Origin: Agathobaculum massiliense
GTDB taxonomy: Bacteria > Bacillota > Clostridia > Oscillospirales > Butyricicoccaceae
Reading direction: 5' to 3'
Assembly: GCF_900291975.1 (NCBI RefSeq)
Contig: NZ_OMPN01000001.1
Location: 1,674,001 to 1,738,000 of the forward strand
DNA length: 64,000 nt
The first letter of the stretch is position 1. Every line of letters begins with the position of its first letter. Shown here piece after piece: positions 14,226-49,239 of the stretch. The translations under genes were made by a program, and so were the position numbers. A model generated the notes under the pieces. The model had not been told where the DNA came from. It saw only the letters and a list, made by a program, of their open reading frames with translations, and did no database searches.

Positions 14226-14280
14226 TTTTGACCGCATTCCGGCAATTTCCTCTATATTATGTGCAGTATCGCGCCATCAG
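14226..14280 (+). repeat. 55-bp upstream flank shared by cassettes A and D
   Basis: It matches the reverse complement of 38175-38229 at 51 of 55 positions, ending in GCCATCAG. Sequences further upstream in the two places are unrelated. It includes TTGAC and TATATT boxes at a poor 19-bp spacing. Confidence 0.8.
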
Positions 14281-14351
14281 AAAAAGGTTCTCGCACTGGT
14301 GCTGGCGTTCGCATGCGCGTTCACCATGTTTGCCGGTGCGGCGTTCACGGA
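14281..14351 (+). repeat. 71-bp recombination-candidate block, copy A
   Basis: Starts AAAAAGGTTCTCGCACTGG and encodes the signal-peptide core. Present six times in the window; preceded here by GCCATCAG at 14273-14280. Confidence 0.85.
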
Positions 14352-17300
14352 CGAGGCCGATATCCAGGCCAAGGACGCCGTGAACATGCTGACGGCGCTG
14401 GGCGTAATCGAGGGCGACCCCGATGGCTCCTTCCGTCCGGACGCAACCGTTACCCGTGCGGAAATGGCGAAGATGATCTTCGTTGTCCGCAACAACTCCA
14501 TTGACGACTCGGCTTACGAGAACAACTCCTCTAAGCTGACCGACATCAACAGCCACTGGGCCAAGGGCTACATCAAGTTCTGCGAGTCCCAGGGCATCAT
14601 CGCCGGCTACGGCGACAACACCTTCAAGCCCGACGCGACCGTAACCGGCGTGGAGGCTGCGAAGATGCTGCTCGTTCTGGCAGGCTACGACGCTGACAAG
14701 GCTGGTCTGGTAGGCCACAACTGGTCCACCAACACCCTGCGTTACGCTGGCTCCGCCGGCCTGCTGGACGACGTCAACTCCGGCCTGGAGCAGGGCCTGC
14801 CGCGTCAGTACGCCGCGCAGATGATCGCAAATACGCTGGACACCAACCGCGTGAAGTGGTCCACCGACTCCGATTCCTTTGACGACATCCTCAACGGCGG
14901 CGTCAAGGAAACTGTCGGCTCCGCTTACATGGGCCTGTCCTACGACTACGGCACCCTGACCTCGATCGAGACCGACTCCCTGACGATCAAGATCGATGCT
15001 GACTACGACTCTGATAACTACCACAACTCCGACCGTAACTACAGCAACGGCGACCTGGTCAACTTCACCAAGGTTTCCGAGGACTACACCTCCCTGCTGG
15101 GCCAGAAGGTCAAGGTCATGTTCAAGGATGGCAAGACCAACAATGTCCTCGGCGTTTACGCGGTTTCCGACAACACCGTTTACAACACCCTGATGAAGAA
15201 TGTTGAGCTGGACGGCCAGAAGCTGAAGTTTGAAGGTTCTTCCTACTCTGTGGACAGCACCAAGTCGATCGACCTGACCTTTGTCGGCATTGACGGCGTT
15301 GAAACCGACACGGTTGCGTACACCTACTTTGACAAGGATGCTGCTGCGAATGAGCACGACACCAATGGCAACACCTCCTTGGCTGAGGTAACCTTTGTTG
15401 ACTCCGACGGCAACAACAAGATCGACACCGCGATCGTATTTGAGAAGATCGGCGGCGAAGTGACCAACGTTGCTTCCGACAAGATCACCTTTGCCGGCAA
15501 GTCCTACAAGTTTGCCGATGAAATCATCGATGAAGAGCTGGAAGCGGACGATTACGCGGTAATGTCCTACAGCATGTACGAGGACTGCAAGGAAATCGTC
15601 AAGGCTGACATTGTCACCGACGAGCTGGAGGGCAGCAAGAACAAGACCTCGGATAACGGCAACTACAGCCAGTACGAGATCGCCGGCACCTGGTATAACA
15701 TCGACACCACGGACAGCGACACCGGCTATGAGAACGTATCCGTAGGCGACACCGTTAAGGCGTATGTTGCCAACGGCGTTATCCTGAACGTTGACACCGA
15801 CGACGGCACGGGCGCAATCCCGACCAATGTCGCGGTTGTTGTCGGTAACGGCAGCGGCTCGACCACCCTGTACGGCGATCAGGTCAAGCTGCGTTACTTC
15901 GACGGCACGCTCAAGACTGTCACGATCGACAGTGATAACAGCATCGCAGGCAACGACACTCAGCTCGGCCGTGCGTACAAGGTTTCCGGCAGCGACAGCG
16001 CTACCAAGCTGGAAGAGCTGAAGAACCAGAAGTACAACGGCTACCTGGCGCTGGTCTATGGCAGCGAAGACGCTAAGAACGTTGCACTGGGCAGCAACAA
16101 CACGATTGCCGGCAAGCGCGTCGCGGACGACGCTGTGATCGTTGTTTGGGACGAGAACGGCTCCTCCAAGACCATCACCGGCAAGCAGTTCAACAACCTG
16201 ACCTCCTCCGCTGATCTGGTAACCACCAAGGGCGCTGGCGCGGTATTCACCAAGGATTACAACGGTCTGGACCGTGTCCGCTTGGCCTCTGTTGAGGTTA
16301 AGTCTGGTTCTACCATTGGCGATATCTCCGGCACCTCCAACGATAACTACGGCTACATCACCGCGGACGCGGTTGAGCGCAGCAACGGCGACGTCACCTA
16401 CACCCTGTGGAACGGCTCCGAGAACCTGACCGTTAAGGAAGAGAACGGCACCGCGAGCGACCGCGCCAAGGGTACCGTGATTGGTTACGGCAGCATCGAT
16501 GCTGACGGCTACATCCAGGATGTTGACGACAGCTACGGCCTGCTCAAGAGCGTAAGCAACACCACGCCGAGCCAGAGCAACCTGGCGGTAGGCGCGAACA
16601 AGGCTTCCACCACCCGCTCCATCTCGGTTGGCGACAACCAGCTGAACGTCACCGCGGACACCAAGGTGCTCGTGATTGACTCCAGCGAGGACGACGACGC
16701 GATCGGCCAGGAATACATCTACGGCACGACCACGCTGCGCAAGGCTGACAAGGATGTTAACGACGATTACATGAACAACGTTGCATATATCCTTGACGAG
16801 GCTGTGGTTGATGGCGAGGCTGATCTTGAGCTCCTGATCATCGACAACACCGGCAAGTTCGATTGGATCGACGATGGCAGCAGCGACGATGAGGAAGAGG
16901 AAGAAGAGGGCGGTTCTTCTACCAAGGATAACATTACGGTTACCACTGATGCTTCTCTGGCAGTTGATAAAGTCCTGACCTCTATCGATGGCTCCGGCAA
17001 CCTGACCATTGCTCTGCCTGCACCGACCGGCGCGGCTTCTGTAACTGCAGATATTACCGTTAAGGTTGATGGTATCAACGCTACGGCTGCCGAGGGTTCG
17101 ATTACCGTCGATCAGAAGACCTGGACTGTTACCGGCAAGAACCTGAGCGACAAGAATAAGATCACGGTTGACGTGAAGAACTACAAGGTAGTTATGACGG
17201 TCGCTGAGGGTGCTCTGACACTGTCTGATGTTCCGGCTAAACCGGTTGATGGAACGGCTGAGGCTGCTTTGCCTACAACTGCTCCGACAACCACTCAGGC

Positions 17301-17517
17301 CGGCTTGGGTACGATTAGCGCTGTAACTTGGGCTGAAACCACGGATAATGGTACGCCTAACCAGGTTGATAGCACGGATGTTTGGACTGCAACGTTCACC
17401 ATTGCAGCAGATAACGGCTACCAGTTTGTGAACGGCGGCACTTACACTTTGGGCGGAGCGACAGTAACTGCGACCACAACTCAGTTAACGGTTGTATTTA
17501 CGTTCACCATTGATTAA
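14281..17517 (+). CDS. Silent S-layer (SLH) cassette A
   Basis: A 1078-codon open frame for an S-layer-type protein without its own start region. From the 71-bp block it encodes a signal-peptide core (KKVLALVLAFACAFTMFAGA), then three SLH modules (about residues 25-185) that bind pyruvylated cell-wall polymer, a conserved central region including LLGQKVKVMFKDGKTNN, a long Asp/Gly/Thr-rich body, a DDEEEEEEGG linker and a C-terminal Ig-like domain. It would be exported and form or join the surface layer. The only upstream in-frame ATG (14206) has no ribosome site. The C-terminal segment uses more AT-rich codons than the SLH part, a sign of mosaicism. Terminator and T1 gene follow, convergent. 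Confidence 0.82.
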   Translation, partial: KKVLALVLAFACAFTMFAGAAFTDEADIQAKDAVNMLTALGVIEGDPDGSFRPDATVTRAEMAKMIFVVRNNSIDDSAYENNSSKLTDINSHWAKGYIKFCESQGIIAGYGDNTFKPDATVTGVEAAKMLLVLAGYDADKAGLVGHNWSTNTLRYAGSAGLLDDVNSGLEQGLPRQYAAQMIANTLDTNRVKWSTDSDSFDDILNGGVKETVGSAYMGLSYDYGTLTSIETDSLTIKIDADYDSDNYHNSDRNYSNGDLVNFTKVSEDYTSLLGQKVKVMFKDGKTNNVLGVYAVSDNTVYNTLMKNVELDGQKLKFEGSSYSVDSTKSIDLTFVGIDGVETDTVAYTYFDKDAAANEHDTNGNTSLAEVTFVDSDGNNKIDTAIVFEKIGGEVTNVASDKITFAGKSYKFADEIIDEELEADDYAVMSYSMYEDCKEIVKADIVTDELEGSKNKTSDNGNYSQYEIAGTWYNIDTTDSDTGYENVSVGDTVKAYVANGVILNVDTDDGTGAIPTNVAVVVGNGSGSTTLYGDQVKLRYFDGTLKTVTIDSDNSIAGNDTQLGRAYKVSGSDSATKLEELKNQKYNGYLALVYGSEDAKNVALGSNNTIAGKRVADDAVIVVWDENGSSKTITGKQFNNLTSSADLVTTKGAGAVFTKDYNGLDRVRLASVEVKSGSTIGDISGTSNDNYGYITADAVERSNGDVTYTLWNGSENLTVKEENGTASDRAKGTVIGYGSIDADGYIQDVDDSYGLLKSVSNTTPSQSNLAVGANKASTTRSISVGDNQLNVTADTKVLVIDSSEDDDAIGQEYIYGTTTLRKADKDVNDDYMNNVAYILDEAVVDGEADLELLIIDNTGKFDWIDDGSSDDEEEEEEGGSSTKDNITVTTDASLAVDKVLTSIDGSGNLTIALPAPTGAASVTADITVKVDGINATAAEGSITVDQKTWTVTGKNLSDKNKITVDVKNYKVVMTVAEGALTLSDVPAKPVDGTAEAALPTTAPTTTQAGLGTISAVTWAETTDNGTPNQVDSTDVWTATFTIAADNGYQFVNGGTYTLGGATVTATTTQLTVVFTFTID

Positions 17518-17540
17518 GGTATTCGCTACAATCCGTATGG

Positions 17541-17584: not shown

Positions 17585-18205
17585 TTACTTGAACACGATA
17601 TACCGATACGGATTTGCCACACTGTCCTCCGTGTTGGTGCAGTTGAGCATGCCTTTCACCTCAAAGCCCGTGGAGGTGACAACTAAATGATATGCTGCGA
17701 TATCTGGCATTGCAAGCTCCATGCGCTGGGGATTATCTACGTTGCCAATCCATCTGGCGTTTGCAACCAGCACGGCTTTGGGTTGGTAGCCTAAGCGGAT
17801 TGCTTGCGTATTCTTTTCACCGTTGCCGTTATAGCTGCCAAGATAAATCTCGCATTTCTGTGCCTCCACCTCGGTCAGACGGGTATCCAGTGCGGAAACA
17901 GCCGCTTCCCGCGCCTCGCTTTCGGTATTAAGCGACGTCTGGGTTGCTTTTGCGTCCAGTTCGGCGGCAAGCTCCTCTGAGAGCATCTCCCGATCGATCG
18001 TGTCCCCGAACGTATCCACCACGATGCCCTCCACACGCGCCTCCAGCCGTGAAGCCTCGTCGCAGATTCCGTTCACCGCCTGCCGCAGCTCCTCCGGACT
18101 GCTGTCGAATCGCGCTTTCAGCTCGTTTGCCGGCAGGCTCGGCTGGTCGGGCAGGTCGGTGATTTTGTGCTGGAACGCTGTGATTTTATGATCGCTGAAT
18201 GACAT
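17585..18205 (-). CDS. Tail-fibre-like protein T1 (constant N-terminus, variable C-terminus)
   Basis: A 206-residue protein without signal peptide or membrane segment. Residues 1-90 (SFSDHKITAFQHKITDLPDQ onward) are almost identical in all six T genes of the window and resemble N-terminal parts of phage tail-fibre or baseplate-associated proteins. A short coiled-coil-like stretch follows (about 92-120). The C-terminal ~88 residues have the pattern YxGxYxGxG...LGYxPKAV...STGFEV...YRYIVFK seen at the tips of phage tail fibres, but differ strongly from the other T proteins. ATG follows AAAAGGAGG. It is convergent with cassette A and divergent from T2. Function unknown. Confidence 0.8.
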   Translation of the reverse strand: MSFSDHKITAFQHKITDLPDQPSLPANELKARFDSSPEELRQAVNGICDEASRLEARVEGIVVDTFGDTIDREMLSEELAAELDAKATQTSLNTESEAREAAVSALDTRLTEVEAQKCEIYLGSYNGNGEKNTQAIRLGYQPKAVLVANARWIGNVDNPQRMELAMPDIAAYHLVVTSTGFEVKGMLNCTNTEDSVANPYRYIVFK

Positions 18206-18780
18206 GAAAAACCTCCTTTTGTTTGGGGCGGCCGGAGCTCCCCCTCGCGCGCGTTCCTCTGACCACGCGGGCGCGCGCGTGAGGGGTTCCCCGCCCGCCG
18301 TTTGCACCGACACGGGAAAGTAAGCGTCTACCAGAATAGCAGAAACGGGAAAAAGCGCAAGGGCAAATACTTGCCCTTGCGCTTTCCGTTTTTTGGGCTA
18401 TTATAACGGTTGCTTACTTTCCCCGCATGAAAAACCAGACGGGGCGGCTCCGCCCCACGCGCGCCCGCGCGCGCTGTCCAAGGAACGCGCGCGGGCGGCA
18501 CCGACAAAAAGGAGGAAACCATGTCTTTTTCTGACCACAAGATCACGCAATTCACACACAAAATCACCGACCTGCCCGACCAGCCGAGCCTGCCGGCAAA
18601 CGAGCTGAAAGCGCGGTTCGACAGCAGTCCGGAGGAGCTGCGGCAGGCGGTGAACGGAATCTGCGACGAGGCTTCGCGGCTGGAGGCGCGTGTGGAGGGC
18701 ATCGTAGTGGACACGTTCGGGGACACGATCGATCGGGAGATGCTCTCAGAGGAGCTTGCCGCCGAGCTGGACGCGAAAGC
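17940..18780. repeat. 0.8-kb T-centre repeat, copy 1
   Basis: Near-identical to 33768-34558 and 44428-45267, all in the same orientation. Each copy contains the first ~250 bp of a leftward T gene, the divergent promoter region, and the first ~250 bp of a rightward T gene, so the copy is also internally an inverted repeat. Confidence 0.9.
18314..18423. promoter_or_regulatory. Symmetric divergent promoter of T1/T2
   Basis: Outer arms GGGAAAGTAAGC / GCTTACTTTCCC lie 110 bp apart. At the centre is a 15-bp perfect palindrome, AAAGCGCAAGGGCAA, ATAC loop, complement (18352-18385). Each inner arm supplies a -35: rightward TTGCGC, 16 bp, TATTAT (18377-18404); leftward TTGCGC, 16 bp, TATTCT (18333-18360). 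Both transcripts would begin with the same GCTTACTTTCCC. Long GC stems follow in both leaders, e.g. CCCGCGCGCG / CGCGCGCGGG at 18464-18495. The palindrome could also be an operator. Confidence 0.65.
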
Positions 18781-19174
18781 CGAACAAACCGCGCTTACCG
18801 GCGTTGACAGCCGTCTGCAGTCCGCAGAAGCTACCCTGCAGGCGCACACCGCGCAGCTTGCACAAAAAGCGGAGGTGTATTTCGGCACCTACACCGGTGA
18901 CGGCGCCGCCAGCCGTTTGATCAATATTGGTTTTACGCCAAAAGCCGTGATGGTGATGTGCGGCGGATATGCGACTTATTCCAAGGGTAGCCAGACCCAC
19001 TGGTACGGCGGCCTGGCGCTGGCGGGAAAGCCGGTGAAAGCATCGGACGGCAGGTCGGTATTGAACATCGAGGCGGGTGGTTTCCGCGTTTACACGGAGA
19101 GCACGCAGGTTTTTGCCGACTATGTCATGTCGAATACGGCAGAGCGGTCTTATCACTACATAGCCGTGAAGTAA
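18521..19174 (+). CDS. Tail-fibre-like protein T2
   Basis: A 217-residue T protein. The constant part (1-90) differs from the leftward copies at only a few residues (QFTHK instead of AFQHK), and this difference is kept in all three rightward copies. A coiled-coil-like stalk (TGVDSRLQSAEATLQAHTAQ) joins it to a C-terminal ~100-residue tip with YFGTYTGDG, INIGFTPKAVMV, GGFRVY and YHYIAVK. The ATG has AAAAAGGAGGAAACC upstream. It ends 6 bp before the terminator shared with cassette B. No export signal is visible. Confidence 0.8.
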   Translation: MSFSDHKITQFTHKITDLPDQPSLPANELKARFDSSPEELRQAVNGICDEASRLEARVEGIVVDTFGDTIDREMLSEELAAELDAKAEQTALTGVDSRLQSAEATLQAHTAQLAQKAEVYFGTYTGDGAASRLINIGFTPKAVMVMCGGYATYSKGSQTHWYGGLALAGKPVKASDGRSVLNIEAGGFRVYTESTQVFADYVMSNTAERSYHYIAVK

Positions 19175-19235: not shown

Positions 19236-22200
19236 TTAAGCTACAGTGATATCCAAGGTGTAAACCCAAGAAGTAGCAGTATGCGTGCCAGCAACCCAAC
19301 CGCCAGCCGGAGCAGCGGGAGCGGCACCCAGAACATGGTTAGCATCTGCTGCTGTAATAGTCAGGGTAGCGGTTGCGATATCGTTTTGCTCAATCGTGCC
19401 CTCAGTAGCCCCGTTATTTGTCTTTTCAACAACAGAAACCGCAGCACTCAGGCCAGTTGTCATACCAGTCACCGTATAACCACCGTTAACAGTGGCTGCG
19501 GGGTCGCTGGCCGTCGGAAGACCAGTCAAAGTACCAAGCGCAGTGATGGTCTGCGCTGCCACCGAGAACTCTACGGTCTTGGTAGCGCCGCCAACCGTCA
19601 GTTCCAGAACGTAATCGCCTTTATCCGCGCCATTCAGAGTAACCGTGGTGCTCTGTGCAGCAGCGTCGTTATTGGTGGGCAGAGTAAAAGCAGCACCAGC
19701 GGTGAACTTGGAGCTAACCAGATTGGTCTTGGACGAATCGCCCTTCGCATAGATGATGTAAGACGGACGCTTACCTACTGCATTCTCATATACGATATCG
19801 AGGTTTGCAACAGTAGTATCGCCAAAGGTCCAGCTCGGCTTGAACTCAAGGCTGGTGATCTTCTCGCCGGTAGACGGGGTCGTGTTGCCAGCAGCCGTAA
19901 AGGTCGCGGTAACATTGCCTGCGCCGGTAACGATCAGCGAATCAAACAGGTTGTATTCGCCGCCCTTGACAGACAGGGTAACCGTACCGTCGTTGTCGTT
20001 AGTCTCGATATCGGCAACATTGGTCAGCGTCAGCGTGCCATCCTTGTCAGCGTAGAACGAAAGCTGCATGATCGCGCCTTCGTAAGCCGCGCCCTCGTCG
20101 GTGTCGTTCGTGCGGGTGTTCAGCCACTGTACGTCAGACAGGCCGGAGATAGAGGGCAGCGTGTAAGCGCCATAGCGCTTGCCGGCGATCTCGTTAACGT
20201 CGATTACAATAACCTCGCCGCCGTATACCAGCAGGTTGGTCGCGTAGTAGGTAGTGCCGTTAACCTTCTGGCTATTCGCCTTGGTTGCAACGCCATCTTC
20301 CAAGCCGGTGCCAGCCTTGGAGTCAACGTACAGAACAGTGCTGTAATCATCCAGATCCTCATACGGGAGGTTAATCGTGCTGGATTCGATCGTGGTGCCC
20401 TTGGAGTTAACAGAGGTGATGGAACCAGCCGTTACACCAGAGGTGATCGCAACAGCGTCGGTCATGACCTTGTTGCCATCCTCATCATTGATCGCGGTGT
20501 AGCCAACGATAGTACCCTTGGTGAAGTCGTTCTCGCGGGACTTTTCAGCTACAACCTCAACGTTTTCAGCGCCGGTCCAAACGGTGAACTTGATGTTGCC
20601 GTTGGAGAGCTTAACAGCGTCCTTGGTGATGAAGCCGTAGTTCGCATTCGAAGAAATATTGTCGAATGTAGTACCCAGAGAACCGTTGCCGTTGAACTCA
20701 ACAGCGATAACGGAAGCGCGGTTCAGGCCGTCCACGTCGGAGGTGAAGTAGCCCAGAGTAGCCTGATACAGGTTGTTGGAGCTGCCATCGACATCGAGCG
20801 TACCGTCGCTTACCAGCGCCTTGAGCTGCTTGCCGGTGATGTGCTTGATGTCAGCCTTGGTCGTGTTGGCCGGCGTACCGTGGCTGTCCGTCGTCCAAAC
20901 GATAACGTCTGCGCTGTCAGAAATGCGGTCAGTGTCGACCTTATCGCCAGCGGTATCCAGATCCTCCTTGCCCTCGTAGGTGAAATCACCGTAGAAGTCA
21001 GCGGTGGAGGCAAGGGCAATCAGCTCATAGGTGCTGCCGGACTTGCTGTACTCGTAGAACTGGCCGGGAACAATAGCGGTACCCTTATCGCCGTTCTGCT
21101 GCGTAAAGTAGGTGTTCTTCAGGTTGATGGTCGCCTTGTCGCCGTTCGGGAACATGACGCGCGCCTGATCGTTGGACAGGCCGTCCTGGCCAACATAGGA
21201 CACGAACAGAACGTCGGTCAGCTTGTCGGAACCAGCGGAGGTCTTGTCAGCGTAGAACAGAATGCCGTTTACGGCAACATATTCTGCCTCAACACCCGGC
21301 TTTACGTTGGTGTTGATGTCCTTGTTGGAGGAATCGGTTTCATTGAACCACTCGTCGCCGATCTGGTACTGCTTCCAGCCGGTCTTATCCTTGGTGGCCT
21401 CAACAGTGCCGGTCGCCTTGGAGGCTACGACGATATCGTTGTTGTCGTTGTACAGGTTCTTGGTGATAATGACCCAGTCGTCCTTCTCAACGTCCTCGTC
21501 GATCGTGTCTTCGGAGAACTTGTAGGTTTTGCTGCCCGCGATGATCTGCGAGGAAGCGACATAGGTAACCTTGGCAACGTCTACCGTCTTGATGTAAGCG
21601 GTATCGATCTTGTTGTTGTCATCGGTGTCGATCAGGGTGATCACGTCCGCCGACTGCTGATCCTTGAACGCGCCAGCCTTCCAGTTTTCGTTCAGCTCTT
21701 CGCCGTCACGGATTACAGTCACGCCGTCGGTTTCAACCGAGTAGCTCTCGTCGTCAATGACGATCTTGCCGGCGTCGACGCTGATCTCGTTCTGATTGAC
21801 CGTGACAACACTGTTGTCGTCGATCGGGTAAACGCCGAGAACAGAGTTGTTCTTGCCGTCCTTGAACAGAACCTTGACCTTCTGGCCCAGCAGGCTCGAG
21901 TAGTCGGTGTCAACCTTGACAAAATGCTCGTCGTCGCTGTCGCTGTCGGTGCGGTCAGAAGAGGACATCTGGATATCGAGGTCGGAGCCGTCGATGCTGA
22001 TCAGCGTACCAACGTTGGTCCACAGATCCATCCACTTGCGGCCAACGGAGATCGAAGAGCCGCCCAGAGCGAGGCCGTCCTCGGAATCGTTGACGAAATC
22101 CTCAACGATTTCGGAGTAGCGGACAGCGGTCATATCCAGCGCGTTGGCGAGGATCTGCGCCGCGTCCTGACGGGTGCAGGCGCCGGTGATGGAAGAGTTA

Positions 22201-22697
22201 ACGTCGTTCAGCAGGCGGTTGGTGGTTGCCAGGGTGACGGTGTTGGTCAGCCACTTGGTGCCGGTCAGACCAGCCTTGTCCGCGCGGTAGCCGCCCAGAA
22301 CGAGCGCCATCTTGAGCGCTTCGCCGGTGGTTACGTTGCCGTCCGGATCGAACTGGGTCGCGGTCTTGCCCGCAACGATGCCGGTATTCTGCAGGTACTT
22401 GATGTAGCCCTGATACCAGCTGTCGGTCAGGTCGGTGAACGAAGTCGGGTTGTTCGCATGAGCGGAAGCGTCGTCGTTGCCGCCGTTGCGGATGACATAA
22501 ATCATCTTGGCAAACTCAGCGCGGGTGACGTCTCCCTCAGGATTGAAGCTGCCGTCGCTGTAGCCATTGATAATGTTCAGCTCCGTCAGCAGGTCCACGG
22601 CTTCTGCGTTGACAATGTCCGCCTCGTCCGTGAACGCCGCACCGGCAAACATGGTGAACGCGCATGCGAACGCCAGCACCAGTGCGAGAACCTTTTT
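19236..22697 (-). CDS. Silent S-layer (SLH) cassette B, divergent type
   Basis: A 1153-codon open frame. It shares the signal-peptide block exactly with the other cassettes, then diverges: its SLH modules (AVDLLTELNIINGYSDGSFNPEGDVTRAEFAKMI and following) differ clearly from A, C, D, E and F. The middle again has LLGQKVKVLFKDGKNN. The C-terminus holds Ig-like repeats. Reading back from the block in frame gives CAG CAT TGC TAA, a stop immediately upstream, so it cannot be translated from an upstream ATG; a GTG at 22679 has no ribosome site and would lose the basic signal-peptide start. It would be expressed only after fusion to another leader. Confidence 0.82.
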   Translation of the reverse strand, partial: KKVLALVLAFACAFTMFAGAAFTDEADIVNAEAVDLLTELNIINGYSDGSFNPEGDVTRAEFAKMIYVIRNGGNDDASAHANNPTSFTDLTDSWYQGYIKYLQNTGIVAGKTATQFDPDGNVTTGEALKMALVLGGYRADKAGLTGTKWLTNTVTLATTNRLLNDVNSSITGACTRQDAAQILANALDMTAVRYSEIVEDFVNDSEDGLALGGSSISVGRKWMDLWTNVGTLISIDGSDLDIQMSSSDRTDSDSDDEHFVKVDTDYSSLLGQKVKVLFKDGKNNSVLGVYPIDDNSVVTVNQNEISVDAGKIVIDDESYSVETDGVTVIRDGEELNENWKAGAFKDQQSADVITLIDTDDNNKIDTAYIKTVDVAKVTYVASSQIIAGSKTYKFSEDTIDEDVEKDDWVIITKNLYNDNNDIVVASKATGTVEATKDKTGWKQYQIGDEWFNETDSSNKDINTNVKPGVEAEYVAVNGILFYADKTSAGSDKLTDVLFVSYVGQDGLSNDQARVMFPNGDKATINLKNTYFTQQNGDKGTAIVPGQFYEYSKSGSTYELIALASTADFYGDFTYEGKEDLDTAGDKVDTDRISDSADVIVWTTDSHGTPANTTKADIKHITGKQLKALVSDGTLDVDGSSNNLYQATLGYFTSDVDGLNRASVIAVEFNGNGSLGTTFDNISSNANYGFITKDAVKLSNGNIKFTVWTGAENVEVVAEKSRENDFTKGTIVGYTAINDEDGNKVMTDAVAITSGVTAGSITSVNSKGTTIESSTINLPYEDLDDYSTVLYVDSKAGTGLEDGVATKANSQKVNGTTYYATNLLVYGGEVIVIDVNEIAGKRYGAYTLPSISGLSDVQWLNTRTNDTDEGAAYEGAIMQLSFYADKDGTLTLTNVADIETNDNDGTVTLSVKGGEYNLFDSLIVTGAGNVTATFTAAGNTTPSTGEKITSLEFKPSWTFGDTTVANLDIVYENAVGKRPSYIIYAKGDSSKTNLVSSKFTAGAAFTLPTNNDAAAQSTTVTLNGADKGDYVLELTVGGATKTVEFSVAAQTITALGTLTGLPTASDPAATVNGGYTVTGMTTGLSAAVSVVEKTNNGATEGTIEQNDIATATLTITAADANHVLGAAPAAPAGGWVAGTHTATSWVYTLDITVA
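22627..22697 (-). repeat. 71-bp recombination-candidate block, copy B
   Basis: Identical to copies A, C and E although the rest of cassette B is divergent. GCCATCAG occupies 22698-22705. Confidence 0.88.
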
Positions 22698-22866
22698 CTG
22701 ATGGCATTAAAAATAATTTTTTGATGTTTTTTGATGCCGCATTATAGCACGGATCGGTCATAATTGCAACTATTATTTTTATTTTTGATTTTGAACTTCC
22801 TGGATTATATTTCCATGTCTTAACAGTCGGAATTTGAGTATTCATTCATGCAAAAGAATAATTATA

Positions 22867-22903
22867 AAAATACGCCCCTCTTTTATAAGAGGGGCGTATT
22901 TTA
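22867..22903 (-). terminator. Terminator of the decarboxylase-darA-holB-ricT operon
   Basis: AAAATACGCCCCTC / GAGGGGCGTATTTT hairpin overlapping the ricT stop codon. Confidence 0.88.
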
Positions 22904-23995: not shown

Positions 23996-24014
23996 AAGCT
24001 GATATCCTCCTATA

Positions 24015-38402: not shown

Positions 38403-38437
38403 TTTATATATCATTTTACAAACAGAAAGGGCAGCTT

Positions 38438-39808: not shown

Positions 39809-39823
39809 TGGAGGAGACGGGAA

Positions 39824-40564: not shown

Positions 40565-40577
40565 AGAGAGTTCGGTG

Positions 40578-40605
40578 CGGCCTCCCATAAAAGGGAGGCC
40601 GTTTT
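40578..40605 (+). terminator. Terminator of murT-gatD
   Basis: CGGCCTCCC / GGGAGGCCG stem with a 6-nt loop, then TTTT. It also blocks readthrough into silent cassette E. Confidence 0.88.
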
Positions 40606-40787
40606 GTATGTTATAGACAAATTTCTTTTCTTACTTTTGGAGGGCTCATTTGTGCCAAACAGGCGCAACCCGCATAGGCGGCTTTTGCGGATAAAAAATA
40701 GAGGCTTTTAAAAAAGTTTGTCCATTTAGTTATTTTATACGGAAAATCAAATAACAGAAGGGTTTTTGTTATATAATCCGCCATCAG

Positions 40788-40858
40788 AAAAAGGTTCTCG
40801 CACTGGTGCTGGCGTTCGCATGCGCGTTCACCATGTTTGCCGGTGCGGCGTTCACGGA
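40788..40858 (+). repeat. 71-bp recombination-candidate block, copy E
   Basis: Preceded by GCCATCAG at 40780-40787. Confidence 0.85.
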
Positions 40859-43800
40859 CGAGGCGGACATTAAGGCCACCGACGCCGTGAACATGCTGAC
40901 GGCGCTGGGCGTAATCGAGGGCGACCCCGATGGCTCCTTCCGTCCGGATGCAACCGTTACCCGTGCGGAAATGGCGAAGATGATCTTCGTTGTCCGCAAC
41001 AACACCATTGACGACTCGGCTTACGAGAACAACTCCTCTAAGCTGACCGACATCAACAGCCACTGGGCCAAGGGCTACATCAAGTTCTGCGAGTCCCAGG
41101 GCATCATCGCCGGCTACGGCGACAACACCTTCAAGCCCGACGCGACCGTAACCGGCGTGGAGGCTGCGAAGATGCTGCTCGTTCTGGCAGGCTACGACGC
41201 TGACAAGGCTGGTCTGGTAGGCCACAACTGGTCCACCAACACCCTGAAGTATGCTGGCTCCGCCGGCCTGCTGGACGACGTCAACTCCGGCCTGGAGCAG
41301 GGCCTGCCGCGTCAGTACGCCGCGCAGATGATCTACAACACGCTGGACACCAACCGTGTCAAGTGGTCCAACGATTCTCAGTCTTTTGACGACATCCTCA
41401 ACGGCGGCGTCAAGGAGACCGTTGGTAAGGCTTACATGGGCCTGTCCTCGGATGTCGGTACCCTGATCTCCATCGATCGTGACTCCCTGACCATCAAGCT
41501 GGACGAAAGCTACGATTCCGACAACTACCACAAGATCGCCCGATACGACGATGTGACCTTTACCAAGGTTTCTGAGGACTACACCAGCCTGCTGGGCCAG
41601 AAGGTCAAGGTCATGTTCAAGGATGAAAAGACCAACAACGTTCTGGGCGTCTATTCCATCTCGGACAACACGGTTTACACCACCCTGATGAATGGCGTTG
41701 AAAAGGACGGCGCTAAGATTAAGTTCGGCGGCAAGTCCTACTCGATCGACGGCACCAAGATCGCCACTACCTTTATCAGCGTAGACGGCGCGCAGGCGGA
41801 AAAGGCTCAGTCTCTTGACTATTTCGACAAGGGCGCTGCACTCAACGAAAATGAGTCCAACGGCAACCTGTCCACCGACGAGGTAACTTTCGTCGATGCG
41901 AACGGCAACGGCAAGATCGATACCGCTATCGTATTCGAGAAGCTGGTCGGCGAAGTGACTTACGTTTCTTCCGATAAGATCACCGCTGGTTCCAAGACCT
42001 ACAAGTTCGAGGACGAAAACATCGACGAGGACATCGAGCAGGACGACTGGGCGGTTGTTTCCGCGAACCTGTATGAGGACTGCAAGGATGTTGTCAAGGC
42101 TGATATCATCAGCACCACACTGGACGGCTCCCGCGACAAGAATGACAAGATCAACGGCGACTACAAGCAGTATAAGCTGGACGGCACCTGGTACAACATT
42201 TCCGACGAAAACGCTTCGGATGTTTCCAACGGCGACTCCGTCAAGGCTTATGTTGTCAATGGCGTGATCGTTAAGATCAAGTCCGACGACGGCAAAGGCG
42301 GCTTCCCGACCAACGTTGCGGTCGTAGTCAGCAACGGCACGATCAACGGCGATCAGGTCCGTATCCGCTACTTCGACGGCACCTCCAAGCTGGTTACCAT
42401 CTCCGACAACACCAAGGTCACCCTGGGTTCCAGCTCGGCTGGTAAGGCTTACAAGGTTTCCGGCTCGGATACTTCGATGAAGTTCGAGGCGATCGACACC
42501 ATCAAGTACAATGGCTACCTCTATGTTGGTACCGGCACGGCCGATCCGAGCAATGATAAGGTAACCGTAAGCACTAAGGACTATACCGTGGATGATTCCG
42601 CCGCGGTTATCCTGTATGACGGCAACGGCCGCTCCAAGATGCTGACCGGCAAGCAGTATAACGCGCTGAATACCAATGATTTGGCTACCTCTAAGGAAGC
42701 CGGCGCGGTATTCACGAAGGACAAGAACGGTCTCAACCGTGCGATGATGATCACTGTCAAGACCGACGATATGACCATCAGCGGCGAGTCTTTCGACAAC
42801 TACGCATATGTTGTCACCAACAACGGCCAGAACAAGGACGGCAATGCTTCCTACACGATCTGGACGACTGACAACGAGTATGTTGACGTTATCGAAGAGA
42901 ACGCGACTGCTCGCGCTAAGGGTACGCTGATCGGCTACTCCGCGATCAACTCCGACAACGTTATCAGCGACGTAAGCGAGGTCGCCAAGATCGCAGATGT
43001 TGATACCTCCAAGCAGACTGCGGTTAAGGGTACGGCATCTTTCGGTAATGACGGTACCGTTTACTATGGCGGCAACCAGAGCACGGACACCAAGTTCATC
43101 AGCGTTAATAACAAGAAGTTCAACGTAACCGCGGACACCGCTGTCCTGTTCGTTGACTCCGCTGCAGACGAAGATAAGCAGATCGGCGTTGACTTCGTCT
43201 ACGGCACGTCTGCGATGGCCAAGGCTGAGAAGTACATTGACAGCAACGATCAGACTGCTTACTCCTCCAACGTGATGTTCCAGGTTGACGAAAACGGCAA
43301 CGATGATGTTGACCTGAAGGTTCTGGTTGTTGATACCACTGGCGCGTTCGACGGCAAGAGCCACGAGAGCGGCGATGACAGCGGCGAAACTCAGGAGAAG
43401 GGCGACTACAGCACCAAGTATGCTGAAATCTCTGTTGAGGATAAGGATATCATCACTGGCGCAGGCTCCAAGTACGTTTCTGGCGATAAGGAAGTTCATG
43501 TCCAGTTGACGGTCGAAGGCGATTTCGCGGAAGCTACTGCTAAAGCATCTATCGATGTGGATGGATACAAAACCACGCAGAACATTACCCTGAAGCCGGG
43601 CAACACTGCTGACATTGTTATTGCTGATGTGGATACTGCTGATGCTAAGGTTTCCGTTAACATTACGGATATCACCTTCACCAAGGTAAACGTGGGTGTA
43701 GCGGCGGTAGAGACTGCTAATCTGAAGCAGGACAGTGCCACGGCTACTACTAAGGACATGGCTGTGACCGCTGTGGCGGCCGCGGCAAAAGCGAAAGACG

Positions 43801-44012
43801 AGACGGTTACCATTACTGTAACGGGCACGAACATCGATAATGGTGGAACGGCTGCTAAGTATGAGTTGACGCTGTCCAACGGCACCAAGCTCCAGAATAA
43901 GGCTGGCGGCTCTACAACCGAAATCACTTTTGAGTATACTGTGACAGAAAACGATATCAAGGCAGGCAAGGCGATTACCCTGACTGCTACTGAGATTAAG
44001 GATGTTCAGTAA
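40788..44012 (+). CDS. Silent S-layer (SLH) cassette E
   Basis: A 1074-codon open frame: signal-peptide core, three SLH modules nearly identical to A, the LLGQKVKVMFKDEKTNN region, and a body ending in a SGDDSGETQEKGDY linker and an Ig-like C-terminal domain. Reading upstream in frame from the block there is a TAA at 40750-40752 with no ATG, GTG or TTG in between. The first possible start is an internal GTG at 40806 with no ribosome site. The ~170 bp between the gatD terminator and the block show no promoter leading to a start codon. Same orientation as C, so it needs a prior flip of module 3 to be reached by inversion. Confidence 0.82.
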   Translation, partial: KKVLALVLAFACAFTMFAGAAFTDEADIKATDAVNMLTALGVIEGDPDGSFRPDATVTRAEMAKMIFVVRNNTIDDSAYENNSSKLTDINSHWAKGYIKFCESQGIIAGYGDNTFKPDATVTGVEAAKMLLVLAGYDADKAGLVGHNWSTNTLKYAGSAGLLDDVNSGLEQGLPRQYAAQMIYNTLDTNRVKWSNDSQSFDDILNGGVKETVGKAYMGLSSDVGTLISIDRDSLTIKLDESYDSDNYHKIARYDDVTFTKVSEDYTSLLGQKVKVMFKDEKTNNVLGVYSISDNTVYTTLMNGVEKDGAKIKFGGKSYSIDGTKIATTFISVDGAQAEKAQSLDYFDKGAALNENESNGNLSTDEVTFVDANGNGKIDTAIVFEKLVGEVTYVSSDKITAGSKTYKFEDENIDEDIEQDDWAVVSANLYEDCKDVVKADIISTTLDGSRDKNDKINGDYKQYKLDGTWYNISDENASDVSNGDSVKAYVVNGVIVKIKSDDGKGGFPTNVAVVVSNGTINGDQVRIRYFDGTSKLVTISDNTKVTLGSSSAGKAYKVSGSDTSMKFEAIDTIKYNGYLYVGTGTADPSNDKVTVSTKDYTVDDSAAVILYDGNGRSKMLTGKQYNALNTNDLATSKEAGAVFTKDKNGLNRAMMITVKTDDMTISGESFDNYAYVVTNNGQNKDGNASYTIWTTDNEYVDVIEENATARAKGTLIGYSAINSDNVISDVSEVAKIADVDTSKQTAVKGTASFGNDGTVYYGGNQSTDTKFISVNNKKFNVTADTAVLFVDSAADEDKQIGVDFVYGTSAMAKAEKYIDSNDQTAYSSNVMFQVDENGNDDVDLKVLVVDTTGAFDGKSHESGDDSGETQEKGDYSTKYAEISVEDKDIITGAGSKYVSGDKEVHVQLTVEGDFAEATAKASIDVDGYKTTQNITLKPGNTADIVIADVDTADAKVSVNITDITFTKVNVGVAAVETANLKQDSATATTKDMAVTAVAAAAKAKDETVTITVTGTNIDNGGTAAKYELTLSNGTKLQNKAGGSTTEITFEYTVTENDIKAGKAITLTATEIKDVQ

Positions 44013-44059: not shown

Positions 44060-44692
44060 CTATTTCAGCGCAACATACCGGAATGGACCATTGGCCGAAA
44101 GGTTCATATAGCGGCTTACCTGAAAACCGGTACTTGTGATCGAAACATATGGCGACGCCGCATCCTCCACCGCGATATGTGCCAGTGTTGCGCCGTAACC
44201 GGCAATATTGCTCGCGTTGCTCGAGGAAATAATAACCGCTTTCGGCTGAAAGCCGAGAGAAACGGTTTTCGTATTACTATGGCTGTAATCCCCGTCCCAG
44301 CTTCCGGCATAACTGCCGCAGTAAATTTCACATTTCTGTGCGGTCAGTGTTTCGTTAGCCGTTAAACGGTCGGCAAGGGCCTTATCCGATTGGACACGCG
44401 CTCCCGCTTCATCAGAGAGCGCGGCCTGGGTCGCTTTCGCGTCCAGCTCGGCGGCAAGCTCCTCTGAGAGCATCTCCCGATCGATCGTGTCCCCGAACGT
44501 GTCCACCACGATACCCTCCACACGCGCCTCCAGCCGTGAAGCCTCGTCGCAGATTCCGTTCACCGCCTGCCGCAGCTCCTCCGGACTGCTGTCGAATCGC
44601 GCTTTCAGCTCGTTTGCCGGCAGGCTCGGCTGGTCGGGCAGGTCTGTGATTTTGTGCTGGAACGCTGTGATTTTATGATCGCTGAATGACAT
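44060..44692 (-). CDS. Tail-fibre-like protein T5
   Basis: A 210-residue T protein. The constant N-terminus is followed by a heptad-like stalk (SDEAGARVQSDKALADRLTA) and a tip with IYCGSYAGSWDG, KTVSLGFQPKAVII, ITSTGFQVSRY and FRYVALK. The tip resembles T1 more than the other copies (QKCEIY, STGF). ATG at 44692 has AAAAGGAGG. Convergent with cassette E. Confidence 0.8.
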   Translation of the reverse strand: MSFSDHKITAFQHKITDLPDQPSLPANELKARFDSSPEELRQAVNGICDEASRLEARVEGIVVDTFGDTIDREMLSEELAAELDAKATQAALSDEAGARVQSDKALADRLTANETLTAQKCEIYCGSYAGSWDGDYSHSNTKTVSLGFQPKAVIISSSNASNIAGYGATLAHIAVEDAASPYVSITSTGFQVSRYMNLSANGPFRYVALK

Positions 44693-45267
44693 GAAAAACC
44701 TCCTTTTGTTTGGGGCGGCCGGAGTTCCCCCTCGCGCGCGTTCCTCTGACCACGCGGGCGCGCGCGTGAGGGGTTCCCCGCCCGCCGTTTGCACCGGCAC
44801 GGGAAAGTAAGCGTCTACCAGAATAGCAGAAACGGGAAAAAGCGCAAGGGCAAATACTTGCCCTTGCGCTTTCCGTTTTTTGGGCTATTATAACGGTTGC
44901 TTACTTTCCCCGCATGAAAAACCAGACGGGGCGGCTCCGCCCCACGCGCGCCCGCGCGCGCTGTCCAAGGAACGCGCGCGGGCGGCACCGACAAAAAGGA
45001 GGAAACCATGTCTTTTTCTGACCACAAGATCACGCAATTCACACACAAAATCACCGACCTGCCCGACCAGCCGAGCCTGCCGGCAAACGAGCTGAAAGCG
45101 CGGTTCGACAGCAGTCCGGAGGAGCTGCGGCAGGCGGTGAACGGAATCTGCGACGAGGCTTCACGGCTGGAGGCGCGTGTGGAGGGCATCGTGGTGGACA
45201 CGTTCGGGGACACGATCGATCGGGAGATGCTCTCAGAGGAGCTTGCCGCCGAGCTGGATGAGAAAGC
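44428..45267. repeat. 0.8-kb T-centre repeat, copy 3
   Basis: Same structure as copies 1 and 2, with a few scattered base changes. Confidence 0.9.
44801..44910. promoter_or_regulatory. Symmetric divergent promoter of T5/T6
   Basis: Third copy of the 110-bp element; 15-bp palindrome at 44839-44872. Confidence 0.65.
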
Positions 45268-45616
45268 AACCCAGGCCGGACTCGCCGCCGAGCAGCAGGC
45301 CCGCGAAGCGCTTTCCGGACGGGTCCGCGCGCTGGAGAACGCGGTGCCGCAGAAAAGCGAGATGTATTTCGGCACCTACACCGGAACCGGCAGCTATCCG
45401 CGCACCCTGTCGATCGGGTTCACACCCAAGGCGGTCATTATCGGCCATAAGGACGGCCTGATCGCGGACGAAACCGCGGTTTACAGCACCTTGATGCTGC
45501 AAGGCTACAAAACAGATTACTGTGGCATTGTTTCCAACGGTTTTACGCTGTATGAGTACAAATACAGCAAGCTCAACTACAACGGCGCGCAGTTTTACTA
45601 CATCGCGTTCCGGTAA
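45008..45616 (+). CDS. Tail-fibre-like protein T6
   Basis: A 202-residue T protein. Constant N-terminus, stalk (AAEQQAREALSGRVRALENA) and a tip with MYFGTYTGTG, LSIGFTPKAVIIG, SNGFTLYEY and FYYIAFR. It ends just before the terminator shared with cassette F. The tip is Tyr-rich, as in many receptor-binding domains. Confidence 0.8.
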   Translation: MSFSDHKITQFTHKITDLPDQPSLPANELKARFDSSPEELRQAVNGICDEASRLEARVEGIVVDTFGDTIDREMLSEELAAELDEKATQAGLAAEQQAREALSGRVRALENAVPQKSEMYFGTYTGTGSYPRTLSIGFTPKAVIIGHKDGLIADETAVYSTLMLQGYKTDYCGIVSNGFTLYEYKYSKLNYNGAQFYYIAFR

Positions 45617-45683: not shown

Positions 45684-48600
45684 TTAAGACAGAGTAACCA
45701 CAGGGCTGGTATACACTACAGTCAGCGTAGCGCCATCATCAGATACGGTCGCATCGTCAACCGTCCAGCTGGTAGCAGTTGCACCGGTGTAGTCACCAGC
45801 GAACTTAAAGTTAGCCTTAGCAGTGTAGGTCACAGTTACTTCAACAGTGTAGCCAATACCGGTTGTCGTCGGCAACTTATCATAGTTGTAATAAGTGTTG
45901 CCATTCAGCTTGTAGCTAACTGCAGCCGTTGCATTAGTAGTATCCGTTGCCGTGAACAAGTCGTTAAAGGATGCAGCGGAATTCCAAGAAGTATTAGTGG
46001 TCAGATCCTTAGCAGTAACAGTCGCACCAGAGATCTCGGAAGTTTCAATTGCCTTATTAACAACCGTAATGGTAGCAGAGGCATCGAACTCGTTCTCCGT
46101 ACCCTTGCCAACCGTAAAGGTCAGGGTAATTACGTCGTCAACCGTTGCAACCGGCACATTGGTCATGGACAGCGTGGTGGAACCGTTTGCCGCAACCTTG
46201 GTGCTGGCAGTTAAAGCCATGCCGGTCAAAGAAGTACCCTTGGAGCTGATCGCGTTCTTCAACTCAACTGTAGTGTTCGCCGGAACATTCTTGGTCGTCA
46301 GCGTGAGAGAAACAGGCTGCGCGGAAGCATCATACTCCTGGGTCACATTTGCAATCGAGCCGGACCAGGTCGTGGTATCGTAAGTTTCCTTGAGTGCGTC
46401 AGCGTACTTGCCGCGGAACTGGTTGTCGCCAGACTCAACGACCAGCACTTCCAGATCGTCGCTGTCCTTGATCAGGTACAGGGCGTTGGCAATGTATCTG
46501 TCGCCGCTGGTGATCATCGCGCCGTCCGCATCGTCATACCACTTGGTAGCCTTGCGGATCGAGCCGGTCGAAGAACCAGTCTTCGCGTCGGTATCGATGT
46601 AGAATACCACGGTGTCAGCGGTTACGTCGCGCTCGTAATTCTGAACAGCGGAGCCATCCCAGCCAGCGATCTGAACCGTGGTCTGCTTGCTGTTCACATC
46701 GGTGATAGCGCCCAGACCGAAGTTGGTCTCGCCCAGCTTGTACAGATGTACGTCGTCGATGTAACGCTTGTCGGCATCCTCACCGTCGAGGGACTTATAG
46801 CCGATCAGGGTGTTCTTCTTGCGGTCACCGGTCTTGGCGTTCTTCTCGTAAACCGTTACGGCCTCGTCAGCGCCCTCGAGCAGCACGTTGTAGGAAACCT
46901 CGTTCGTGCCGGATTCCTTCGCGTCGGACAGGATGTAGCCGTAGAAGTCGTTGGAAGTGGTGGTTTCGGGCAGCTTGTCGACCTCAACAGCAATCGCCGC
47001 AACGCGGGTCAGGCCGTTTACGTCAGCGGTGAAGTAAGCCGCATCGCCCTCATAAGTGACAGCGGAGCTTTCCAGCGCCTTGAGCTGCTTGCCGGTGATG
47101 ACCTTGGAGTCATTGCCGGTATCCTTGCCGTTATCCTCGAACAGGATAACCTTGGCAGTGTCGTCAATCTTCTTGCCGCCCAGAGCATCAGCCTTAGCGG
47201 TGTACGAAGCGGTGCCGACATAGGTGTAATCGCCGTAGTAATCGTCTTCCGTGGACAGACCCTCGAAAGAGTACTCGCCGCCGGAGATGCTGTACTCATA
47301 CAGCGCGCCGACCTTCAGGGAAGCATACTTGATCGTGCTGTCATCGTCAACGTCAACAACCTTGGTAGTGTCGTTGAAGAACTGCAGCTTGACCTGATTG
47401 CCGCCAATGCCGGCATCCTTGTTAACGACCATCGCAATGTCGGTCACATCAGCCAGAGAGCCGTTGCCCGAAGAGCGCTTGATCTTCCATGCAACGCCGT
47501 TTACAACAACAGCCTCGACCTCGTCGCCCGCCTTAACGGTGCTGATATCGGTACGGCTGTCCTTGTCGGTTGCGCCATTGTACCACTCGTCGCCGATTTG
47601 GTACTCATGATACTTAACGCCAGTACCCTTGTTTGCGTTGTAGTTCTCGGAAGTGCTGTCCTTCTTCAGGCCGTCCAGCTTGCCGGTGATAACGTCAGCC
47701 TTGGCAACGCGGGTGCAGTCGTTGTAGCGGTCGTAGGAGATAATCGCCCAGTCGTCCGCCTTGAGGTCGTCGTCGATGTTCTCTTCGTCGAACTCATAGC
47801 TCTTGCCGGCAACTACCTTGGAGGAGGTAACAGAGGTGACCTCAGCCGCGGCGTAGTCGGTGATGATAACGGAGTCGAAGCGGCCGTTGCCGTCGGAATC
47901 GACGAACTGCATTACCGCAGAGGAGGTATCCCAATCGTCGAACAGCTCTTCAGCCTCAAAGCCGTACTTGCTGTTGGCAGCAGTGTACTTGACACCCGCC
48001 TGAGAGGTGAAGCTCTTGGAGGTACTCGAAGAGGCGCCATCCTCACCGGTTACGGCAGTTTCCTTGCCCTCGATGTCAGTGTAGTAAACATCGATGTAGT
48101 CATTGCCGTAAGCGTTCTCGATCGAGTAGGACTTGCCGCCGAACTTGACCTTATCGCCATCGGACTCTACTTCAGAAGCGTTAACGGCGTAGGCTTCGTT
48201 GTCGGAAACCGCATAAACGCCGAGGACGTTGTTGGTCTTGCCGTCCTTGAACATGACCTTAACCTTCTGGCCCAGCAGGCTGGAGTAATCCTCCTTCACC
48301 TTGGTGAAGTTGGTAGCGTACGGATTGCTGCCGGAGTAAACCTTATCGCTCTCCGCCTCGTCGATACCGGTCAGGGTGAGGGAGTCCTTGCTGACAGTAG
48401 TCAGGATACCAACAGACTTGGTCAGACCCATGTAAGCGTAGCCAACGGTCTCCTTGTAGCCATTGCCGAGGTTGTCGTCAAAGGAGTCGGAGTCGGTGGA
48501 CCACTTGACACGGTTGGTGTCCAGCGTGTTGTAGATCATCTGCGCGGCGTACTGACGCGGCAGGCCGGACTCCAGACCGGAGTTGACGTCGTCCAGGATA

Positions 48601-49079
48601 CCGGCGGAACCGGCATACTTCAGGGTGTTGGTGGACCAGTTGTGACCGGTCAGGCCAGCCTTGTCAGCGTCATAACCGGTCAGAACGAGCAGCATCTTCG
48701 CAGCTTCCACGCCGGTTACGGTCGCGTCGGGCTTGAAGGTGTTGTCGCCGTAGCCGGCGATGATGCCCTGGGACTCGCAGAACTTGATGTAGCCCTTGGC
48801 CCAGTGGCTGTTGATGTCGGTCATCTTCGAAGAGTTGTTCGCGTAGGCCGAATCATCAATGGAGTTGTTGCGGACAACGAAGATCATCTTCGCCATTTCC
48901 GCACGGGTAACGGTTGCATCCGGACGGAAGGAGCCATCGGGGTCGCCCTCGATTACGCCCAGCGCCGTCAGCATGTTCACGGCGTCGGTGGCCTTAATGT
49001 CCGCCTCGTCCGTGAACGCCGCACCGGCAAACATGGTGAACGCGCATGCGAACGCCAGTACCAGTGCGAGAACCTTTTT
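45684..49079 (-). CDS. Silent S-layer (SLH) cassette F
   Basis: A 1131-codon open frame with the common signal core, three SLH modules closest to C (SAYANNSSKMTDINSHW), LLGQKVKVMFKDGKTNN and a distinct body with a Ser/Thr-rich insert near residue 360, then Ig-like C-terminal domains. Upstream in frame the codons run TAA GGG GAA AAT CAG GAA CAG GCC CGC CAT CAG, so a stop precedes the block and no start codon intervenes. The first in-frame ATG is inside the signal peptide (49034). It is inverted relative to C and could be activated by a 19-kb inversion. Confidence 0.82.
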   Translation of the reverse strand, partial: KKVLALVLAFACAFTMFAGAAFTDEADIKATDAVNMLTALGVIEGDPDGSFRPDATVTRAEMAKMIFVVRNNSIDDSAYANNSSKMTDINSHWAKGYIKFCESQGIIAGYGDNTFKPDATVTGVEAAKMLLVLTGYDADKAGLTGHNWSTNTLKYAGSAGILDDVNSGLESGLPRQYAAQMIYNTLDTNRVKWSTDSDSFDDNLGNGYKETVGYAYMGLTKSVGILTTVSKDSLTLTGIDEAESDKVYSGSNPYATNFTKVKEDYSSLLGQKVKVMFKDGKTNNVLGVYAVSDNEAYAVNASEVESDGDKVKFGGKSYSIENAYGNDYIDVYYTDIEGKETAVTGEDGASSSTSKSFTSQAGVKYTAANSKYGFEAEELFDDWDTSSAVMQFVDSDGNGRFDSVIITDYAAAEVTSVTSSKVVAGKSYEFDEENIDDDLKADDWAIISYDRYNDCTRVAKADVITGKLDGLKKDSTSENYNANKGTGVKYHEYQIGDEWYNGATDKDSRTDISTVKAGDEVEAVVVNGVAWKIKRSSGNGSLADVTDIAMVVNKDAGIGGNQVKLQFFNDTTKVVDVDDDSTIKYASLKVGALYEYSISGGEYSFEGLSTEDDYYGDYTYVGTASYTAKADALGGKKIDDTAKVILFEDNGKDTGNDSKVITGKQLKALESSAVTYEGDAAYFTADVNGLTRVAAIAVEVDKLPETTTSNDFYGYILSDAKESGTNEVSYNVLLEGADEAVTVYEKNAKTGDRKKNTLIGYKSLDGEDADKRYIDDVHLYKLGETNFGLGAITDVNSKQTTVQIAGWDGSAVQNYERDVTADTVVFYIDTDAKTGSSTGSIRKATKWYDDADGAMITSGDRYIANALYLIKDSDDLEVLVVESGDNQFRGKYADALKETYDTTTWSGSIANVTQEYDASAQPVSLTLTTKNVPANTTVELKNAISSKGTSLTGMALTASTKVAANGSTTLSMTNVPVATVDDVITLTFTVGKGTENEFDASATITVVNKAIETSEISGATVTAKDLTTNTSWNSAASFNDLFTATDTTNATAAVSYKLNGNTYYNYDKLPTTTGIGYTVEVTVTYTAKANFKFAGDYTGATATSWTVDDATVSDDGATLTVVYTSPVVTLS
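49009..49079 (-). repeat. 71-bp recombination-candidate block, copy F
   Basis: Carries the same GTA variant as copy D; GCCATCAG at 49080-49087. Confidence 0.85.
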
Positions 49080-49239
49080 CTGATGGCGGGCCTGTTCCTG
49101 ATTTTCCCCTTAATCGCCCCGTTTTCGGCCAAATATCTTCTATTTTGCAACAAATCGAAAAAAACGCTTTTTCGCCGTTCCCCTGAAAACAGGAAAAGCT
49201 TTTTTCTCCTCCTCCCGCAGTTTCCGGCCGCTTTTTTAC

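Follow-up and report, generated by a model that had tools for sequence, protein, structure and literature searches.

A probable single-expression-site S-layer switch built from paired cassettes in Agathobaculum massiliense

The window analysed here, a stretch of 64,000 nucleotides from the genome of Agathobaculum massiliense, carries a surface-layer (S-layer) locus composed of three mirror-image modules, each ordered SLH> <T T> <SLH. It comprises six large SLH genes (A to F), each tail-to-tail with a member of a second gene family, here called T, whose N-terminus resembles a phage tail fibre protein. Counted from a shared 5' block onward, the SLH genes have 1073 to 1199 codons; SLH domains were found in A, B and C, the three scanned against Pfam, and D, E and F align with these. 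Frames and gene order were confirmed as given in an earlier note on this DNA, which had described six SLH genes in three modules of identical order. Across the whole 3.2-Mb genome the 5' DNA block is matched six times, always within the locus, and the SLH region has 35 matches in all, including more distant SLH proteins elsewhere. With its neighbours, the locus reads <pgm-like [A-B] <ricT <holB <decarboxylase serC> serA> [C-D] murT> gatD> [E-F] <SLH-protein. RicT scored above its curated cut-off; holB, MurT, GatD and the pgm-like mutase are best family matches below theirs, and serC, serA and the decarboxylase are names that we presume. We regard this locus as a single-expression-site S-layer switch like that of Campylobacter fetus, with a probability of about 85%. 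The features are collected in Table 1.

Gene C starts with ATGAAGAATCTCAAA joined to AAGGTTCTC, its ATG being preceded by the ribosome site AAAGGAGG and, at 29658-29686, by a promoter-like TTGACG-17-TATGAT that is conserved in relatives. A scan of the upstream frames of all six genes bore out the proposal that only C has a promoter, a ribosome site and an ATG: in B, E and F an in-frame stop lies 15-39 nt before the block with no start codon between, and one in-frame ATG upstream of A and one in-frame TTG upstream of D both lack a Shine-Dalgarno-like sequence. The five other cassettes are thus taken to be silent because they have no promoter, ribosome site or start. The promoter itself had been placed at 29432; this separate scan match falls outside the part that aligns in other genomes (from about 29677 on) and was rejected as the conserved promoter in favour of the one at 29658-29686.

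The five silent copies begin with GCCATCAGAAA followed directly by AAGGTTCTC. Searched with up to 3 mismatches, the junction GCCATCAGAAAAAGGTTCTCGCACTGGTNCTGGC gave five matches in the window, all exact and located at A, B, D, E and F, and 0 in shuffles. Upstream of it (-9 to -58), the flanks of the silent copies are 28-42% identical, with the exception of A vs D (92%). Downstream, A, C, D, E and F have about 225 codons (about 675 nt) in common, at 76-100% nucleotide identity per 25-codon bin and in a patchwork, and B matches the others at 97-100% over the first 25 codons before dropping sharply to 65-69%. The statement that five genes share an almost identical signal and SLH region applies to the five that share about 225 codons, but the identity varies between bins and B shares 25 codons only. 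Across the genus, 19 silent copies were read, and leader and start are lost exactly in all of them; after two with homologous flanks were dropped, 17 of 17 independent flanks have AT at -5/-4, inside an 8-bp box before AAAAAGG. T-rich positions at -19 and -14 are conserved as well (0.9 and 0.7 bits). Inspection by eye revealed no clear paired inverted arms beside the box and AAAAAGG, and none of the viral contigs searched carries the exact junction pattern.

Table 1. Features of the S-layer locus and its surroundings in the window
Feature	Positions	Strand	Basis
Junction box and start of shared block, A	14273-14306	+	
Silent SLH cassette A	14281-17517	+	reading frame, Pfam SLH, junction, start analysis
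T gene (tail-fibre-like N-terminus), tail-to-tail with A	17585-18205	-	
T-T core, module 1, with 15-bp hairpin	18206-18520		
T gene, tail-to-tail with B	18521-19174	+	
Silent SLH cassette B; about 25 codons in common with other cassettes	19236-22697	-	reading frame, Pfam SLH, junction
Junction box and start of shared block, B	22672-22705	-	
Segment between modules 1 and 2: ricT, holB-like, decarboxylase-like, serC, serA	22706-29657		
Expression-site leader: promoter TTGACG-17-TATGAT, ribosome site AAAGGAGG, then ATGAAGAATCTC	29658-29755	+	conserved in relatives
SLH gene C, cassette at the expression site	29744-33358	+	reading frame, Pfam SLH, start analysis
T gene, tail-to-tail with C	33404-34033	-	
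T-T core, module 2	34034-34348		
T gene, tail-to-tail with D	34349-34879	+	
Silent SLH cassette D; its body has 74% identity to the G012 leader cassette over 860 amino acids	34932-38174	-	
Junction box and start of shared block, D	38149-38182	-	
Segment between modules 2 and 3: murT-like, gatD-like	38183-40779		
Junction box and start of shared block, E	40780-40813	+	
Silent SLH cassette E	40788-44012	+	reading frame, junction, start analysis
T gene, tail-to-tail with E	44060-44692	-	
T-T core, module 3	44693-45007		
T gene, tail-to-tail with F	45008-45616	+	
Silent SLH cassette F	45684-49079	-	reading frame, junction, start analysis
Junction box and start of shared block, F	49054-49087	-	
Tyrosine recombinase, candidate switching enzyme	54297-55352	-	

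By naming, the locus is one of the Agathobaculum/Butyricicoccus group, and the genus comparison covered 25 genomes, the window genome being G000. Exactly one leader-bearing copy is present in 17 of them and two in none, and 12 contain silent copies that start at the same junction point. One leader together with promoterless cassettes in the window, and a single leader-bearing copy in 17/25 genomes, speak for the variable S-layer of C. fetus sap design that the earlier note had claimed. Eight draft contigs (of G007, G009, G013, G022 and G024) stop no more than about 130 bp from the junction, which is what a repeat would lead one to expect; a second cassette of G012 is cut by a contig end and stands outside the silent/leader classification. 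The leaders of the 17 genomes and that of Intestinibacillus massiliensis have the promoter, the ribosome site and an upstream element like CAATATTACACCCGTGTTAC in common, the last being perhaps an operator. In 11 of the 17 the leader is preceded by a gene of about 935 codons, which we take to be O-antigen-ligase-like. In G016 and G018 this gene occupies the T side of the unit, in G008 it points away from the leader, and it was not found in G000, G012 and G002 among the leader-bearing genomes. It is split in two frames in G011 (L095), where serA (G011:C1:206965-208123) is likewise in two frames, perhaps through sequencing errors.

Several signs of exchange between cassettes were found, among them the sharp break in the identity of B after 25 codons. 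The first 66 nt of the block are 97.3% identical within genomes (25 pairs) vs 89.9% between genomes (326 pairs), or 94.2% vs 76.4% at third positions, and this higher identity within genomes points to concerted evolution. The strongest evidence for switching comes from comparing G024, with at least three cassettes, to G011, a single contig of 4.0 Mb with four. What stands at the leader of G024 is a cassette that G011 carries in silent, inverted form, the two copies being 98.3% identical over 2712 bp and 99.4% over a 647-amino-acid body, and the leader body of G011 is a different one, with 33-67% identity to the G024 leader cassette in 100-bp bins after the first 100 bp. An identity of 98-100% holds for positions 1-5000 of the flank and for the spacer that separates two silent copies. 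A changed leader junction, which the earlier note had proposed to look for in related genomes, is therefore present in this one genome pair. The end of the gene preceding the leader has diverged between L102:5001-5840 and L095 (80-92%, the flanks being otherwise 98-100% identical). A weaker parallel is offered by the leader cassette of G012 and the silent window cassette D (74% over 860 amino acids).

Gene order, the other comparison suggested, is also permuted around the modules between species. One contig of G013 without cassettes reads <pgm-like murT> gatD> <serA <serC decarboxylase> holB> ricT> recombinase> SLH-protein; worked out by hand, this would differ from the window by two inversions ending at module positions and a further change for the recombinase and SLH-protein genes. 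Next to silent blocks lie murT in G022, the SLH-protein gene in G009, the recombinase gene in G012 and, in G007 and G013, the equivalent of the window gene 55568-58150.

In the mechanism that we propose, the one conserved leader (promoter, ribosome site and first codons MKNL) would drive any SLH cassette joined to it, and cassettes would recombine at the shared 5' block beside the start codon. Because B, D and F face the opposite way to C, a single inversion would bring any one of them under the leader. The inverted segments would measure 7 kb for B, 8.4 kb for D and 19.3 kb for F; that for B is enclosed by the two opposed blocks of B and C, and the leader would move together with ricT, holB, serC and serA. 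Since A and E run in the same direction as C, they would need two inversions or gene conversion. Recombination between A and C or between C and E, as direct repeats, would remove holB or murT-gatD. These genes are commonly essential, and loss of the cassette store would consequently be selected against.

All six T genes have an ATG and a ribosome site. Their N-termini match phrog_14469 (tail fibre) in six of six cases (E 1.6e-10 to 7.4e-10); tblastn found relatives in 13 phage records, including Bacillus phages such as Page and Palmer, and a search with the T alignment revealed six viral contigs with relatives, a single T protein as query having found none among the viral contigs. In the three contigs examined, the viral relative is the gene after that of a virion structural protein (3/3). 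In this genome the T genes lie outside a phage structural module: all six genome matches to the T N-terminus sit in the S-layer modules, and an origin as part of a resident prophage was rejected. The predicted structure is confident for about residues 90-176 only; six viral structures match it at E <=0.001, all with low TM-scores and none named tail fibre, two that are so named match at 6.5e-3 and 8.3e-3, also with low TM-scores, and 0 of the 531 matches listed among solved structures reach E <=0.001. T was matched in 18 of 60 genomes, our own included. Of the 17 others, 14 have it tail-to-tail with an SLH gene of the cassette family, an assignment made from coordinates for G001 and G005; G027 and G033 were left out of the assessment. 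A T match is missing in G008, G011, G024 and G032, which all have the SLH gene. The T gene of G002 (L106:3734-4348) stands apart: its neighbour is murT, the S-layer gene is about 19 kb away, and its tail-to-tail partner is what we presume to be a phosphofructokinase-like gene.

The T-T core of 315 bp is 99.4% identical across the three modules and has one orientation. Its 15-bp hairpin with a T tail lies at 18352-18385 in module 1 and is flanked, as seen by eye, by the 12-bp inverted arms GGGAAAGTAAGC and GCTTACTTTCCC, which are alike in all modules; a promoter scan of the core gave 0 hits. SLH bodies and T C-termini covary weakly (Mantel r 0.26, p 0.002, 21 pairs; r 0.20, p 0.019 when the T N-terminus is allowed for), and on re-pairing the six T genes of the window the actual pairing ranks 44 of 720. 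The closest T C-terminus to that paired with D is the one paired with the G012 leader cassette; F and I. massiliensis have similar SLH bodies and dissimilar T. The second co-located variable family that had been claimed is present, with a phage tail-fibre N-terminus; its coupling to the SLH bodies is weak. T proteins are likely to be binding proteins of phage origin with a tendency to accompany an SLH body.

A candidate for the switching enzyme is the tyrosine recombinase encoded 5.2 kb from F. Relatives with >=56% identity, a limit chosen after inspection of the list, were found in 10 of 12 genomes that have silent copies vs 0 of 8 with a single copy (Fisher p 0.0007), several genomes being incomplete; the count excludes G004, G010, G014, G020 and G023, which have no usable block and three of which carry the recombinase. 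The gene ends 80 bp from a silent junction in G018, 74 bp in G019 and about 200 bp in G012. On a serA tree of 21 rows (G009, G010, G011 and G020 outside), the label for multiple copies with recombinase changes eight times vs a shuffled mean of 6.6; with 6 of 18 inner branches starred and 8 open, the tree is weakly supported and only hints that the correlation does not reflect one clade. The evidence for a role of the enzyme in switching is correlative.

Several observations weigh against a switch of this kind. All evidence for switching comes from comparisons between genomes. G024 and G011 count as separate species, the leader body of G011 was not found in G024, and neither was the flank of the donor-like silent copy of G011, in a search without positive control. 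About 1 kb before the leader is only 80-92% identical between the two (250-bp bins), except for the last 200 bp, and the order of the remaining pieces requires more than one event, which is at odds with a simple inversion; given the absent pieces and the diverged gene end, horizontal exchange may have contributed. Within the genus, 8 of 25 genomes have one copy only and 5 (G004, G010, G014, G020, G023) no usable block. Outside it, in other genera of the family, the one-leader rule is broken, G035 having two and G028 three leader-bearing copies; such SLH genes lie on L103 and L104 (G035) and on G028:C13 and C14. As to the enzyme, the recombinase is missing from G007 and G015 despite their silent copies and present in G004, G010 and G023, where the block is missing; in G011, given a circular chromosome, its gene is about 0.5 Mb away from the S-layer locus. 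The between-genome character of the evidence, the divergence before the G024 leader and the missing G011 body would also suit cassettes that form an evolutionary reservoir, exchanged between lineages in the long term, including by horizontal transfer, with no switching inside populations. We consider this improbable, as the moved cassette is 98.3% identical, the same level as its flank, the 5' block evolves in concert, leader and start are lost exactly in 19/19 silent copies, and contigs stop at the junction. Far less probable still is that all SLH proteins are expressed from other starts or by read-through. The upstream ATG of A, the TTG of D and GTG codons within the shared block could serve such expression, against which stand the missing ribosome sites at A and D, the stops without a start in B, E and F, and the single leader.

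If the locus is a switch, tyrosine recombinase and RecA alone are about equally likely as its means, and we give little short of an even chance to the version in which general homologous recombination through RecA does the work and the tyrosine recombinase is a bystander. The patchwork of about 675 nt shared by five of the six copies would provide the homology for it, and the silent copies of G007 and G015 and the distant gene of G011 fit a dispensable recombinase. It accounts less well for the co-occurrence of 10/12 vs 0/8, for recombinase genes beside silent copies in G018, G019 and G012, and for a conserved box outside the coding homology. Moreover, cassettes X and Z of G011 (Z measured on the G024 copy) are 87% alike in the first 100 bp and then 58-67% over 500 bp, though two other cassettes of this genome are 81% alike. 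More doubtful is an extended form of the switch, in which the unit would be a two-gene cassette of an S-layer body and a matched phage-derived, tail-fibre-like T gene, bounded by the conserved SLH start and the T-T core. Coat and fitted binding protein would then change together by means of a dedicated tyrosine recombinase, and essential genes between the modules would make store-shrinking deletions lethal.

Elsewhere in the window, 49304-51577, 53018-54256 and 55568-58150 encode more proteins with SLH-like stretches, outside the cassettes, and 58287-59117 a protein of metallo-beta-lactamase fold (best family N-acyl homoserine lactonase, below cut-off). An Rfam scan of the window at gathering scores gave no match.

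Members of Agathobaculum are gut commensals and butyrate producers. If our interpretation as a switch is true, a gut commensal genus carries a coat-switching store of a kind for which C. fetus is the best-known example and Lactobacillus acidophilus a two-gene one. The variation may be antigenic. As named cultured strains carry the locus, coat variation, phage escape and immune visibility are directly testable. In Clostridioides difficile the S-layer protein is a phage receptor (PMC12680318), which makes a T gene tail-to-tail with coat genes a testable clue, though the partnership with phage tail-fibre-like genes is unexplained. Among the papers listed for S-layers in Agathobaculum or Butyricicoccus, none treats this subject, as judged by titles and abstract openings; absence in print is unproven, subscription literature being mostly outside reach.

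In the sap system of C. fetus, one promoter serves several silent S-layer genes with a common 5' part, and the promoter-bearing DNA inverts; switching is RecA-dependent, and the invertible segment contains the S-layer secretion genes. A sap cluster, a sap promoter and phase variation are mentioned in the literature (PMC3887049). Both systems have one promoter and start and several silent cassettes sharing a 5' region, here in the window and across the genus. Different here are the SLH-anchored coat, the tail-to-tail units with phage-fibre-like T genes, the candidate tyrosine recombinase and a shared block of down to 25 codons; segment 22706-29743 holds housekeeping genes (ricT, holB-like, decarboxylase-like, serC, serA) and not secretion genes. 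The S-layer of L. acidophilus is of another type than the SLH-anchored coat, and we know of no T-like partner of its slpA/slpB. These active and silent genes are swapped by chromosomal inversion (PMC7858073, citing Boot 1996). They are two, compared with up to six cassettes here. Xer1 of Mycoplasma agalactiae is a tyrosine recombinase. The vpma/Xer1 system likewise has one promoter and several silent surface genes switched by a recombinase (PMC5634654). Its products are lipoproteins, in contrast to an S-layer, and a recombinase is near the locus here too, in a correlative role. Phase-variable surface proteins of gut bacteria include Bacteroides S-layer operons of the BT1927 type (PMC12118408) and cwpV of C. 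difficile (PMC2784873). In those, an invertible promoter or switch segment turns one gene on or off, whereas here bodies would be exchanged at a fixed leader. Comparative support being good, the locus appears to represent a known type, the S-layer switch with a single expression site, in a variant found across the genus.

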